Part shown: positions 13,467 to 22,087 of the stretch, in pieces | Layout: each line of letters begins with the position of its first letter | Position numbering within the stretch: position 1 is the first letter of the stretch | Virus record (IMG/VR): IMGVR_UViG_3300012930_000027 | Coordinates: 1 to 23,600 of that record | Origin: a virus | Strand: one strand, 5' to 3' | DNA: 23,600 bases | Notes under the pieces: generated by a model | The model's input: only the letters and a program-made list of their open reading frames with translations | The model's database searches: none | Told to the model about the DNA's origin: nothing | Program-made: the position numbers and the translations under genes

Positions 13467-15242
13467 ATGGCTAAAAAGTCTGTTACCCCGCCGCCGATTC
13501 TCAACCAGGAGTATGCCAGGGTTAGCGTGGATGTCCTGAAACTGCATCCCCGCAATATCCGGCAAGGAGACACGGGGGCTATTTATGAGTCTATTGAGGC
13601 GAATGGGTTCTACGGAGCCTGTGTGGTACAGCGATCCACAAACTTTGTTCTGGCAGGCAATCACAGGCTTATCGGGGCGAAGAATGCCGGATTGAAAGAG
13701 GTTCCGGTTATCTGGGTGGATGTGGATGACGAAGCGGCCCTGCGTATCATGCTGGTAGACAATCGTACCAATGATTTAGCGTCAAATTCGGAAGCGGCCC
13801 TTGCGGAATTACTCACGGAACTGGCAAGAACGCCGGTCGGACTCGCCGGGACAGGTTTTGACGGTGATGACCTGGATTTATTGCTTTCGGACCTGGCTCG
13901 CCCGATGCCGGATACATCAGGAGACAGGATTACCCCGGAGGCAGCCCGGAAGACATTAGCGGAGCGGTTCGGCGTTCCCCCTTTCTCCGTTCTGGACGCA
14001 CGGCAAGGATACTGGCAGGATAGAAAACGGGCATGGCTCGCCCTCGGTATACAGAGTGAACTGGGCCGGGGAGAGAATCCACAGGAACCCTCTAACGCTC
14101 CCGGAGGCGCACCCCGTCCGGCGACGCGCCTCCGGGATGGGGAAACAGTACGCGGCGACAGTAAGGGGAAAGCATTAAATCCTGCCCGTTGCTTTGGGCA
14201 GGATTTAATGCGCGGCGAAGGGACGAACGTACTGCCGGGTAAGAAAGACCGTCTGACCTGGGTTCCCGGAGATAGGGAAAAACAAGATTTAGACGAGACC
14301 AGCCGCAAGAATCTTGCGGCTGGTCGGAAGCCTGCGCATTCGATACCTGGCGGGGGAACCGGTAAAAACAGTGGATACATGTTTCGTACTGAAGGGGGCG
14401 ATAGCCCCCTGAAGGAGATTCAGCAGGAAGCAGACAAAAAACTCGGCGGCCTTATCCGTCCAAGTAAGGCCGCCGAGTTTGATGGCTACCGAGTACAGAA
14501 CGGGGAACGTGAGACGCCGGAAGTAAGCGGAACCTCTATCTTTGACCCGGTGCTTTGTGAACTCGCGTACCGCTGGTTTTGCCCACCGGAGGCGCAGGTA
14601 TTAGACCCGTTCGCCGGGGGGTCTGTGCGGGGCGTTGTGGCGTCCCTGTTGGGGTATCTATATACTGGCGTGGAACTTCGCGGGGAGCAGGTCGCCGCAA
14701 ACGAGGTACAGGGGAAGGAAATCGGAAACTCGGAAAAACCGTGCCGGTGGATAACGGGGGATTCCCGGAATATTGAAATCCTTGCGCCAGGGGAATATGA
14801 TTTTGTTTTCTCCTGCCCTCCGTATGCCGATTTAGAGCGGTATAGCGAAGACCCGCAGGACATCAGTACCCTGGAATATCGGGAATTCCTCACGGTGTAC
14901 CGGGGGATAATCGCCGGGGCGGTGGGGATGTTGAAACCGGAACGTTTTGCCTGCTTCGTGGTCGGGGATGTGCGGGACAGGAAGCGGGGATTTTACCATA
15001 ACTTCGTCTCTGATACGATACAGGCGTTTTTAGATGCCGGAATGGAACTCTATAATGAAGCAATTCTAATAACTTCGGTGGGTTCGCTTCCCATTCGAGT
15101 AGGAAAGCAGTTCGGCTCCTACCGTAAACTGGGTAAAACTCACCAGAACGTACTGGTATTTTACAAGGGGAATCAAAAGAACATCCCCGGCATTTTCGGG
15201 GATGTTGACTTTACAGAGGCGGAGGAAACGGCTACCGCATGA
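13467..15242 (+). CDS. ParB-like domain / DNA methyltransferase fusion
   Basis: About 591 residues. An N-terminal ParB-like domain (about 13-118) has VSVDVLKLHPRNIR and the nucleotide-site segment LAGNHRLIGAKNAG. A helical part follows, ending YWQDRKRAWLALGIQSELGRG (about 182-202), as in many phage ParB-methylase proteins. A long low-complexity linker (about 203-353) leads to the methyltransferase: motif I VLDPFAGGSVRG (378-389) and motif IV SCPPY (449-453). CPPY in place of D/N/SPPY is unusual. The protein probably methylates phage DNA; the ParB-like part may guide or load it. The linker DNA holds five perfect inverted repeats. I chose the ATG at 13467; an in-frame GTG at 13446 has no better ribosome site. 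The end overlaps the convergent 65-residue gene by 11 bp. Confidence 0.88.
   Translation: MAKKSVTPPPILNQEYARVSVDVLKLHPRNIRQGDTGAIYESIEANGFYGACVVQRSTNFVLAGNHRLIGAKNAGLKEVPVIWVDVDDEAALRIMLVDNRTNDLASNSEAALAELLTELARTPVGLAGTGFDGDDLDLLLSDLARPMPDTSGDRITPEAARKTLAERFGVPPFSVLDARQGYWQDRKRAWLALGIQSELGRGENPQEPSNAPGGAPRPATRLRDGETVRGDSKGKALNPARCFGQDLMRGEGTNVLPGKKDRLTWVPGDREKQDLDETSRKNLAAGRKPAHSIPGGGTGKNSGYMFRTEGGDSPLKEIQQEADKKLGGLIRPSKAAEFDGYRVQNGERETPEVSGTSIFDPVLCELAYRWFCPPEAQVLDPFAGGSVRGVVASLLGYLYTGVELRGEQVAANEVQGKEIGNSEKPCRWITGDSRNIEILAPGEYDFVFSCPPYADLERYSEDPQDISTLEYREFLTVYRGIIAGAVGMLKPERFACFVVGDVRDRKRGFYHNFVSDTIQAFLDAGMELYNEAILITSVGSLPIRVGKQFGSYRKLGKTHQNVLVFYKGNQKNIPGIFGDVDFTEAEETATA
14099..14137. repeat. 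Inverted repeat 1 in linker of ParB-methyltransferase
   Basis: A perfect 12-bp arm pair: TCCCGGAGGCGC (14099-14110) and its complement (14126-14137), with a 15-nt loop. It is inside coding sequence. Confidence 0.9.
14172..14211. repeat. Inverted repeat 2 in linker of ParB-methyltransferase
   Basis: A perfect 16-bp arm pair: GCATTAAATCCTGCCC (14172-14187) and its complement (14196-14211), with an 8-nt loop. An 8-bp direct repeat CGCGGCGA occurs at 14151-14158 and 14211-14218. Confidence 0.92.
14297..14325. repeat. Inverted repeat 3 in linker of ParB-methyltransferase
   Basis: A perfect 14-bp arm pair: GACCAGCCGCAAGA (14297-14310) and its complement (14312-14325) around a single central base. 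Confidence 0.92.
14393..14410. repeat. Inverted repeat 4 in linker of ParB-methyltransferase
   Basis: A perfect 7-bp arm pair AGGGGGC/GCCCCCT with a 4-nt loop, bracketed by the 7-bp direct repeat CTGAAGG (14389-14395 and 14409-14415). Confidence 0.8.
14439..14480. repeat. Inverted repeat 5 in linker of ParB-methyltransferase
   Basis: A perfect 16-bp arm pair: AAACTCGGCGGCCTTA (14439-14454) and its complement (14465-14480), with a 10-nt loop. Confidence 0.92.
15174..15206 (-). terminator. Probable terminator of the 65-residue gene, inside the methyltransferase gene
   Basis: A perfect 10-bp stem AACATCCCCG/CGGGGATGTT (15180-15189/15197-15206) with a 7-nt loop. On the minus strand it is followed by CTTTTG, which suits a terminator for the gene at 15232-15429. 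On the plus strand no T run follows. Confidence 0.5.
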
Positions 15243-20950: not shown

Positions 20951-21060
20951 GGCTTGTCCTCATGGCTTCTATGCCGGTATACCGACAAGGCCGTATGTTC
21001 CCACGGCTTTTTGCAGAATGTTAATCGCGGCATTGGTATCTCTGTCCAGACTTGACCCGC
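20936..21060 (-). ncRNA. Putative omega RNA (reRNA) 3' part, right end of the element
   Basis: TnpB guide RNAs come from the 3' end of tnpB through the right end. Here the scaffold would end at 20936 with the terminal hairpin CCATGAGG/CCTCATGG (20945-20965), followed by a guide copied from flanking phage DNA (20935 downward). The 5' limit given is arbitrary. Confidence 0.5.
20945..20965 (-). repeat. Right-end hairpin of the tnpB element
   Basis: A perfect 8-bp inverted repeat with a 5-nt loop. It contains the present stop codon of the portal-MuF gene (20948-20950) and lies between the tnpB stop and the right end. Confidence 0.8.
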
Positions 21061-22087
21061 ATATCGGGCAGAGGTGCCAACGCTCTTTTAGTGTTTTCTT
21101 TGCACGATGCCCGCACTGATGGCAGTCCTGCGAAGTGTACGCTGGGTCTATGTTTGCCACTATCCTACCGGCACTTTCAGCCTTGTAGGATAGTACAGCG
21201 CGAAACATTGACCATGCAGCATCACTGATGCTTTTAGCAAGGCAATGGTTCTGCATCATGCCTTTAATGTTGAGTTTTTCAACGGCGATTGTGCCGTACT
21301 CATTAACCAGTTTACGGGATAACTGATGCACAAAATCATGCCTGCGATTACGAATACGCTCATGGATACGAGACAGAACCTTGTTGGCTTTGCGCCGGGG
21401 CTTACTGGCCTTCGCGGTTCGGGATTGTTTCCTGCCTGCCTTCGCCAACGCTTTCTCATCCTGTCGAAAGAATCTCGGATTCTCCACGAACGAGCCGTCA
21501 CTGAGGGCCGCGAATTTGTTAAGCCCTATGTCAATGCCGATGCTCTTATCGGACGCAGGAAGGGGAACGGGTTCGTACTCACAGACAAAGCAGACGAACC
21601 ATTTACCAGCAAGGCGGTGGATAGTGGCGGTCTTGGGAGTGTCAATCAAAGGACGGTGAACGATACACTTAACCTGACCTATCTTGGAGACTTGAATGTA
21701 CTCACCTTGCAGTCGGCAACCACCCTTGTCAATCTGCGGGAATGTCAGACTATCATAAGTTCCACGCCCTTTATAGCGCGGGTATCCCGGCTTCTCTCCG
21801 CTCTTGACACGGCGGAAGAAGGCTTGAAAGGCGAGTTCTACTCGTTCCGAAACGTTCTGCAAAACCTGAGAATGAACGCCTTTAAGTTCCGGGTGAGACG
21901 CTTTCCACTGAGCAATGTGGTTGTTCTGCGTGTTACGGGAAAGGGACTTACCTTGTGTTTTATAGAGTGCGGTTCGCTCAGTGACAAGGCTGTTATAGAC
22001 TTGACGGCAAATATCCAGCGTTTCTGAGAGCGCGGTTTCTTGCGCTTTTGTTGGCAATATTCGATATTTTATACAGAGCGAAGACAC
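20969..22087 (-). CDS. tnpB: TnpB, RNA-guided RuvC endonuclease of IS200/IS605
   Basis: 372 residues, a usual length, and apparently intact. The N-terminal OrfB helical part starts CIKYRILPTKAQ. RuvC-I D186 is in GIDIGLN, RuvC-II E270 in VEKLNIKGM and RuvC-III D350 in DRDTNAA. Between II and III is the zinc finger C322-x2-C325 and C340-x2-C343 (CHQCGHRAKKTLKERWHLCPICG in two parts). TnpB cuts DNA matched by the right-end RNA next to the target pentamer, which helps the element to be retained. The start is GTG at 22087, just inside the left-end hairpin; an out-of-frame ATG lies at 22095. The tail VGTYGLVGIPA overlaps the RNA scaffold. It is oriented against the late genes. Confidence 0.93.
   Translation of the reverse strand: MSSLCIKYRILPTKAQETALSETLDICRQVYNSLVTERTALYKTQGKSLSRNTQNNHIAQWKASHPELKGVHSQVLQNVSERVELAFQAFFRRVKSGEKPGYPRYKGRGTYDSLTFPQIDKGGCRLQGEYIQVSKIGQVKCIVHRPLIDTPKTATIHRLAGKWFVCFVCEYEPVPLPASDKSIGIDIGLNKFAALSDGSFVENPRFFRQDEKALAKAGRKQSRTAKASKPRRKANKVLSRIHERIRNRRHDFVHQLSRKLVNEYGTIAVEKLNIKGMMQNHCLAKSISDAAWSMFRAVLSYKAESAGRIVANIDPAYTSQDCHQCGHRAKKTLKERWHLCPICGSSLDRDTNAAINILQKAVGTYGLVGIPA

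Follow-up and report, generated by a model that had tools for sequence, protein, structure and literature searches.

Coding Palindromes in Other Systems

In Saccharomyces cerevisiae, template switching at quasipalindromes in coding DNA leaves two traces, arm homogenisation and spacer inversion (Abraham and Hazkani-Covo 2021, PMC8604942); the former yields perfect-repeat arms, whereas the latter concerns spacers of 2-5 nt, including gaa/ttc, and causes multi-nucleotide amino acid changes. Both traces recur in the linker of the phage ParB-methyltransferase gene described here; however, the yeast cases are single events scattered over many genes, while the phage linker carries 2-5 hairpins in one gene family and in many phages.

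The coding palindromes of Nematomorpha mitochondria (Mikhailov et al. 2019, PMC6649704) are likewise perfect intragenic repeats with both arms translated; they are gained and lost between species, seldom contain mismatches and disfavour phase 3, in which third codon positions are paired together and which is the most restrictive for the protein. The phage linker appears to share these properties, with perfect repeats, an open frame and only 4/48 hairpins in phase 3. Nematomorpha palindromes, unlike the short phage hairpins of a single gene, reach 284 bp and occur in many mitochondrial genes; clear spacer inversions and a modular host region, predicted to be disordered, distinguish the phage case.

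Rickettsia palindromic elements (Ogata 2000), as summarised in the citing work (PMC6649704), also lie in frame within coding sequence, but they are inserted transposable palindromes, whereas the phage hairpins are unrelated in sequence, belong to one gene and seem to have formed in place. Finally, fusions of a ParB-CTPase fold to an N6_N4 methyltransferase, the same domain pair as here, are reported as frequent in phages in passages of PMC12704722 that describe no linker palindromes, split forms or poly-G tracts. No earlier description of arrayed palindromes in any phage gene came up in a literature search, which is limited evidence; the mutational mechanism is known, and its focus on one modular linker across diverse phages appears to be new.

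The ParB-Methyltransferase Gene and Its Inverted Repeats

The window, i.e., the whole stretch of 23,600 nt that was analysed, is an IMG/VR virus record, derives from an uncultured tailed phage and encodes a terminase, a portal protein with a Mu-F-like domain, a DnaG-type/AAA primase-helicase-like protein and, besides the ParB-methyltransferase (Table 1), a second methyltransferase. In Pfam comparisons of the ParB-methyltransferase protein, ParB_N was slightly under the cut-off (E 1e-5) and N6_N4_Mtase over it (1.8e-7, residues 445-571). The AlphaFold prediction is moderate to good for the ParB N-terminal-like domain, while pLDDT is <50 across nearly all residues 200-358 of the linker; such very low confidence is consistent with disorder.

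Table 1. Coordinates of the ParB-methyltransferase gene, its domains and its inverted repeats in the window
Feature	Position	Strand	Remarks
ParB-methyltransferase gene	13467..15242	+	591 aa from ATG 13467; ORF open from 13446
ParB N-terminal-like domain	13548..13763	+	residues 28-99; Pfam PF02195
Left anchor of the linker	13968..14072	+	conserved block FGVPPFSVLDARQGYWQDRKRAWLALGIQSELGRG; invariant columns in A1/A2
Modular linker with hairpin array	14073..14528	+	predicted disordered
Hairpin 1	14099..14137	+	12 bp arms TCCCGGAGGCGC/GCGCCTCCGGGA; loop 15; PGGS module APGGAPRPATRLRDG
Hairpin 2	14172..14211	+	16 bp arms GCATTAAATCCTGCCC/GGGCAGGATTTAATGC; loop 8, GTTGCTTT; module ALNPARCFGQDLMRG
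Hairpin 3	14297..14325	+	14 bp arms GACCAGCCGCAAGA/TCTTGCGGCTGGTC; loop 1 (A); module ETSRKNLAAG
7-bp inverted repeat	14393..14410	+	AGGGGGC-GATA-GCCCCCT; loop 4; chance level by itself
Hairpin 4	14439..14480	+	16 bp arms AAACTCGGCGGCCTTA/TAAGGCCGCCGAGTTT; loop 10; module KKLGGLIRPSKAAEFDGYRVQNGE
Methyltransferase catalytic region	14529..15242	+	GTSIFDPVLCELAYRW, DPFAGGSVRG, SCPPY; Pfam N6_N4_Mtase; invariant columns

The initial annotation had described five perfect and mutually unrelated arm pairs in the linker between the two domains. All five are present, the arms of the hairpins have no sequence in common and the inter-domain position is correct; the non-random character of the cluster, however, belongs to four of them. 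Repeats with arms of at least 12 bp and loops of up to 15 nt number 4, against 0.017 expected per 23.6 kb from a dinucleotide-Markov model, 60 sequences of which contained at most 1 such repeat; when codons were shuffled synonymously with the protein fixed, 0.022 repeats of at least 10 bp were expected where 4 were observed, and these shuffles rule out that the hairpins are a by-product of a protein motif. In 382 bp, 0.33 repeats of at least 7 bp are expected, hence the 7-bp pair is at chance level. Among the 6 perfect repeats of the whole window with arms of at least 10 bp and loops of up to 40 nt, four are hairpins 1-4, and another, a 10-bp pair at chance level (15180-15206), closes the ParB-methyltransferase gene on its 3′ side. 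Two direct repeats said to accompany the arms do exist, but neither is significant: CGCGGCGA, at 14151 and 14211, codes for RGD and RGE, conserved motifs that homologues possess with or without a hairpin, so that it is not a target-site duplication, and CTGAAGG has four copies in the window.

A window-specific artefact or an assembly chimera was rejected as the main cause, since many independent contigs, as well as one MAG, carry similar clusters, always restricted to the linker. In addition, a second record (L003/G001, IMGVR_UViG_3300012929_000043) is equal to the window over all 10,060 bases compared, hairpins included; this record possibly comes from the same environment. The cyanobacterial HIP1 sequence was not found in the window.

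Homologous Linkers

Several hundred related loci were gathered from viral contigs, one bacterial/archaeal genome scan and phage records. Their linker, which PPFSVLDARQGYW and GTSIFDP delimit, either remains open in a single frame (fused) or is divided into two ORFs (split), and in the split form a pyridoxal-phosphate-enzyme-like ORF sometimes stands between the two. It is composed, like a mosaic, of short modules whose order varies, among them GLLGESEQARSHY, PGGS..A.L..DGKTVRGDGKGR, ARTFGQDLMRGEHVVG, RLTWVAGDR..DLDETSRKILAAG, TVTQNPDGTLAYRP and RSNxNNAPxxPDWA.

Two or more perfect repeats with arms of at least 11 bp were present in 15/166 distinct linkers, with 2-5 hairpins each; one of these arrays is in a Chloroflexota MAG (L222), and the cultured relatives Pam4, Mae-JY30 and R6L have none. 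The hairpin-rich genes are scattered on the gene tree (11 changes for 15 genes), which is weakly supported, so that the number of independent gains is uncertain. The initial annotation, whose interpretation stands in part, had looked to homologues for the deciding evidence, and rightly; it had held that homologues without pairing, or palindromes common throughout the genome, would speak against its reading. Most homologues indeed lack the pairing (at least 15 of the 166 linkers carry hairpins); such palindromes are not, however, common in the genome, the repeats being concentrated in the linker. Perfect repeats (arm ≥11, loop ≤25) number 43 over 20 kb of fused linkers, compared to 26 over the flanking 492 kb. 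When six phage contigs were read almost to their full length, the linkers, ~3.1 kb in all, contained 23 repeats and the remaining ~282 kb contained 27, several of them terminator-like, which corresponds to a linker density ~77 times that elsewhere. Synonymous-codon shuffling of 62 fused linkers gave 0.9 expected repeats against 48 observed.

A PALP (pyridoxal-phosphate-enzyme-like) domain was recognised in L211 (312-2891), L209 (10718-11476), L189, L013, L366 (Pam4) and L368 (R6L), through Pfam for L209 and L211, annotation for Pam4 and sequence for the others; it lies between the split ORFs, directly downstream, or inside the methyltransferase domain between DPFAGGS and CPPY, and a role in DNA hypermodification is possible.

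Rewriting of the Arms

Comparison of the modules suggests that the hairpins are probably coding palindromes, created and kept perfect at the DNA level by inverted-repeat template switching during phage replication. At a near-palindrome the nascent strand would fold back or jump to the opposite template, one arm would then be replaced by an exact reverse-complement copy of its partner, on some occasions with inversion of the spacer; the new codons would be tolerated, provided that the frame stays open, because the linker between the ParB-like domain and the N6/N4 methyltransferase is modular, fast-changing and, by prediction, disordered.

The GQDLM module is common to 128 distinct sequences, in 119 of which the hairpin is absent; nine copies are paired at 11-14 of 14 positions and the rest far less. 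In these nine, the left arm matches the synonymous codons of the phage's own right arm; being the reverse complement of each phage's GQDLM codons, it indicates that the right arm is conserved and the left one rewritten. The same polarity is seen in hairpin 2 of the window, whose right arm encodes the conserved GQDLM while the left is the variable side. Arms are homogenised relative to imperfect homologues in other modules as well: NAPxxPDW is unpaired in L031 (NAPLKPDWATGTGT), paired over 8 bp in L084 and over 13 bp with other arms in L139, and DGTL is perfect in L087 and L211 and unpaired in L018, L021 and L222. Moreover, the closely related L123 and L167 are set apart by a block of substitutions that is matched between the two arms of one hairpin. 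These two linkers also display a sharp, recombination-like boundary, with many differences upstream and identity for the remainder of the 600 bp compared downstream.

Different arm sequences can pair perfectly in the same module. SRKxLAA, the module of hairpin 3, has 12 distinct versions, each paired at 9-10 of 10 positions with at most one mismatch, in several different arm sequences and with A, T or G as the loop; the PGGS module of hairpin 1 is paired through different arms in L087, L211, L209 and L166, and the module of hairpin 4 reads AAACTCGGCTTGACC-cca-GGTCAAGCCGAGTTT in L086. This pattern, together with the strong predicted RNA fold (-191.7 vs -139.9 +/- 5.5 kcal/mol in shuffles for 14090-14490, z -9.5), is what compensatory selection on functional mRNA or ssDNA hairpins might produce, whether they served ribosome pausing, expression control or a packaging/replication signal. 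The conserved RNA structure that had been proposed is nevertheless improbable: the hairpin is missing from most homologues, including the 119 GQDLM genes above; hairpin count, position and centre are variable; G.U pairs are nearly absent; no Rfam match was found in the region; and the loops are exactly inverted (see below), which is not a product of RNA selection. Fused hairpins contain few mismatches, among them 3 G.U and 1 A.C, too few for the asymmetry to decide on RNA selection, and since the hairpin centre of the PGGS module shifts between phages, a fixed-register pairing test is uninformative for that module. Binding sites through which the protein would control its own gene, another initial suggestion, may also be considered, but common sequence among the arms is lacking.

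The GLLGESEQ module departs from this picture: its copies in nine genes are almost the same and occupy three linker positions, which shows that recombination also acts in the linker; this resembles the movement of a module more than its origin on the spot, and counts against the template-switch model. Such mobility, and the mosaic order of short common modules, would fit mobile palindromic mini-elements akin to those of Rickettsia, inserted in frame and later diverged. This origin, which corresponds to the serial insertion suggested initially, is unlikely, as most modules have arms that vary from phage to phage and stem from local sequence, and the same modules exist with and without hairpins. 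The six matches to a degenerate GLLGESEQ pattern in IMG/VR were all on contigs with the module in the ParB-methyltransferase gene, and phage/plasmid records gave only partial, chance-level matches; a single sequence family dispersed in many genes, as in Rickettsia, was thus not seen, the arms being unrelated and GLLGESEQ having been found in this gene only. The Y1 transposase (PF01797), the hallmark searched for IS200/IS605 or REP-type mobility, had no match in 12 records of hairpin-bearing genomes; a reverse transcriptase (PF00078), as in diversity-generating retroelements, was not detected in 12 records that are possibly fragments, while the controls matched, and inspection by eye across the linker modules revealed no shared core sites like those of integron attC hairpins.

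Loop Inversion

Template switching between the arms would also account for the loops. Where two hairpins of one module have different loops of 2-4 nt, either loop is usually the other's exact reverse complement, with the arms retained and the flanks in unchanged orientation: tc/ga (L084/L210), ga/tc (L130/L176), gaa/ttc (L053/L209) and gata/tatc (L185/L210); in PGGS loops both gga and tcc occur. Exact inversion is unexpected from selection for RNA pairing and expected from template switching between arms, of which arm homogenisation plus spacer inversion is the signature. L085 is an exception, being a GLLG copy that has diverged, pairs imperfectly and has att as its loop; so are the SVF/AVF modules and some GQDLM loops, in which the relation is neither identity nor inversion.

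In GQDLM, with the antisense reading of the L087 palindrome left out, all five aberrant loops return to the canonical R-x-F on re-inversion (RNS to RCF, RSN to RCF, QTH to RVF, QRH to RVF and QRS to RTF), and F occupies the corresponding place in 111/114 hairpin-less copies; the L189 loop is RTS, with no inversion. Inversions alter the encoded amino acids, as in E/F, D/Y, T/P and RCF/RSN.

Probable Translation of the Arms

From the reading frames, the hairpin arms look translated, as phase-3 pairings are depleted and frames open. Phase 3 was used by 4/48 hairpins, compared to one third of the short repeats in the same linkers (P 5e-5); the counts are partly dependent, since modules are common to several phages, and with distinct cores only P is 9e-4. 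The frame of fused genes is open through every hairpin, and in several hairpins one arm codes for a peptide conserved in hairpin-less homologues. These features make it very improbable that the linker is untranslated owing to translational bypass or RNA processing, as in the byp elements of Magnusiomyces mitochondria or in T4 gene 60; this possibility, also put forward initially, is favoured by the interruption of the coding sequence by hairpins and by the division of some homologues into two ORFs.

Poly-G Tracts in Split Relatives

Split linkers contain a second kind of hypermutable sequence. Poly-G runs occur in a third of the split relatives and in zero fused linkers; runs of at least seven G number 62 in 54.6 kb of split linker vs 38 in 755 kb elsewhere, and runs of 7-12 G were recorded in the split linkers of L021, L022, L034, L093, L105, L120, L161, L176, L188, L201, L226 and L355. 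A shift of +/-1 at the run reopened the frame in 12/14 testable genes vs 3.5 expected, and the frame is restored only for the step from GQDLM to the methyltransferase; slippage giving one continuous ORF over the whole linker was rejected (1/35). Run lengths differ among the near-identical L021, L022 and L096. Judged from sequence, the runs look like a means of phase variation or programmed slippage.

The coexistence of two hypermutable sequence kinds in one linker makes a selected role in diversification conceivable. The linker might then be an evolved, enzyme-free diversification region, in which self-correcting and self-inverting hairpins (fused) or poly-G tracts (split) rewrite or switch the inter-domain segment, a proposal that we regard as doubtful. 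That hairpins and tracts are kept as a contingency region, selected for diversifying or switching the methyltransferase linker, is less probable still: the amino acid changes caused by loop inversion, the enrichment of poly-G runs with the frame reopening in 12/14 genes, and the varying run lengths all agree with it, but the linker is predicted to be disordered, fused linkers have no poly-G runs, and sequencing error may contribute to the run lengths seen in assembled contigs. If the focus on the linker were adaptive, it would offer phages an enzyme-free route to vary a DNA-modifying protein.

Agent and Location of the Rewriting

That the agent is template switching in replication, rather than recombination or cruciform resolution, is our inference; either of these would leave similar inversion traces. 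The location is likewise attributed, by inference, to permissiveness combined with a propensity of this site for fold-back. Other permissive regions ought to suffer from a general replication error as well, yet in the six near-whole phage contigs no such clusters were found in other regions of the hairpin-bearing genomes, so that the permissiveness of a disordered region explains the linker focus only in part.

Under template switching, these linkers would constitute a natural, replicated record of the rewriting of a protein, the value of which lies in many phages having the same modules, in ancestral and derived states found together, and in loops readable both ways. They also carry a warning: hairpins in coding DNA may covary perfectly without any selected RNA structure.

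Other Features of the Window

A TnpB/OrfB_IS605-like ORF is located at window positions 20969-22087 (-); TnpB-type domains were further found in L123 and in the contig of L086, and TnpA was not found. The second N6_N4 methyltransferase gene (1738-2691) is adjoined by a tRNA gene at 2764-2852 (-; Rfam RF00005, 50.9 bits). GATC is strongly depleted in the window, with 16 sites vs ~92 expected from base composition.
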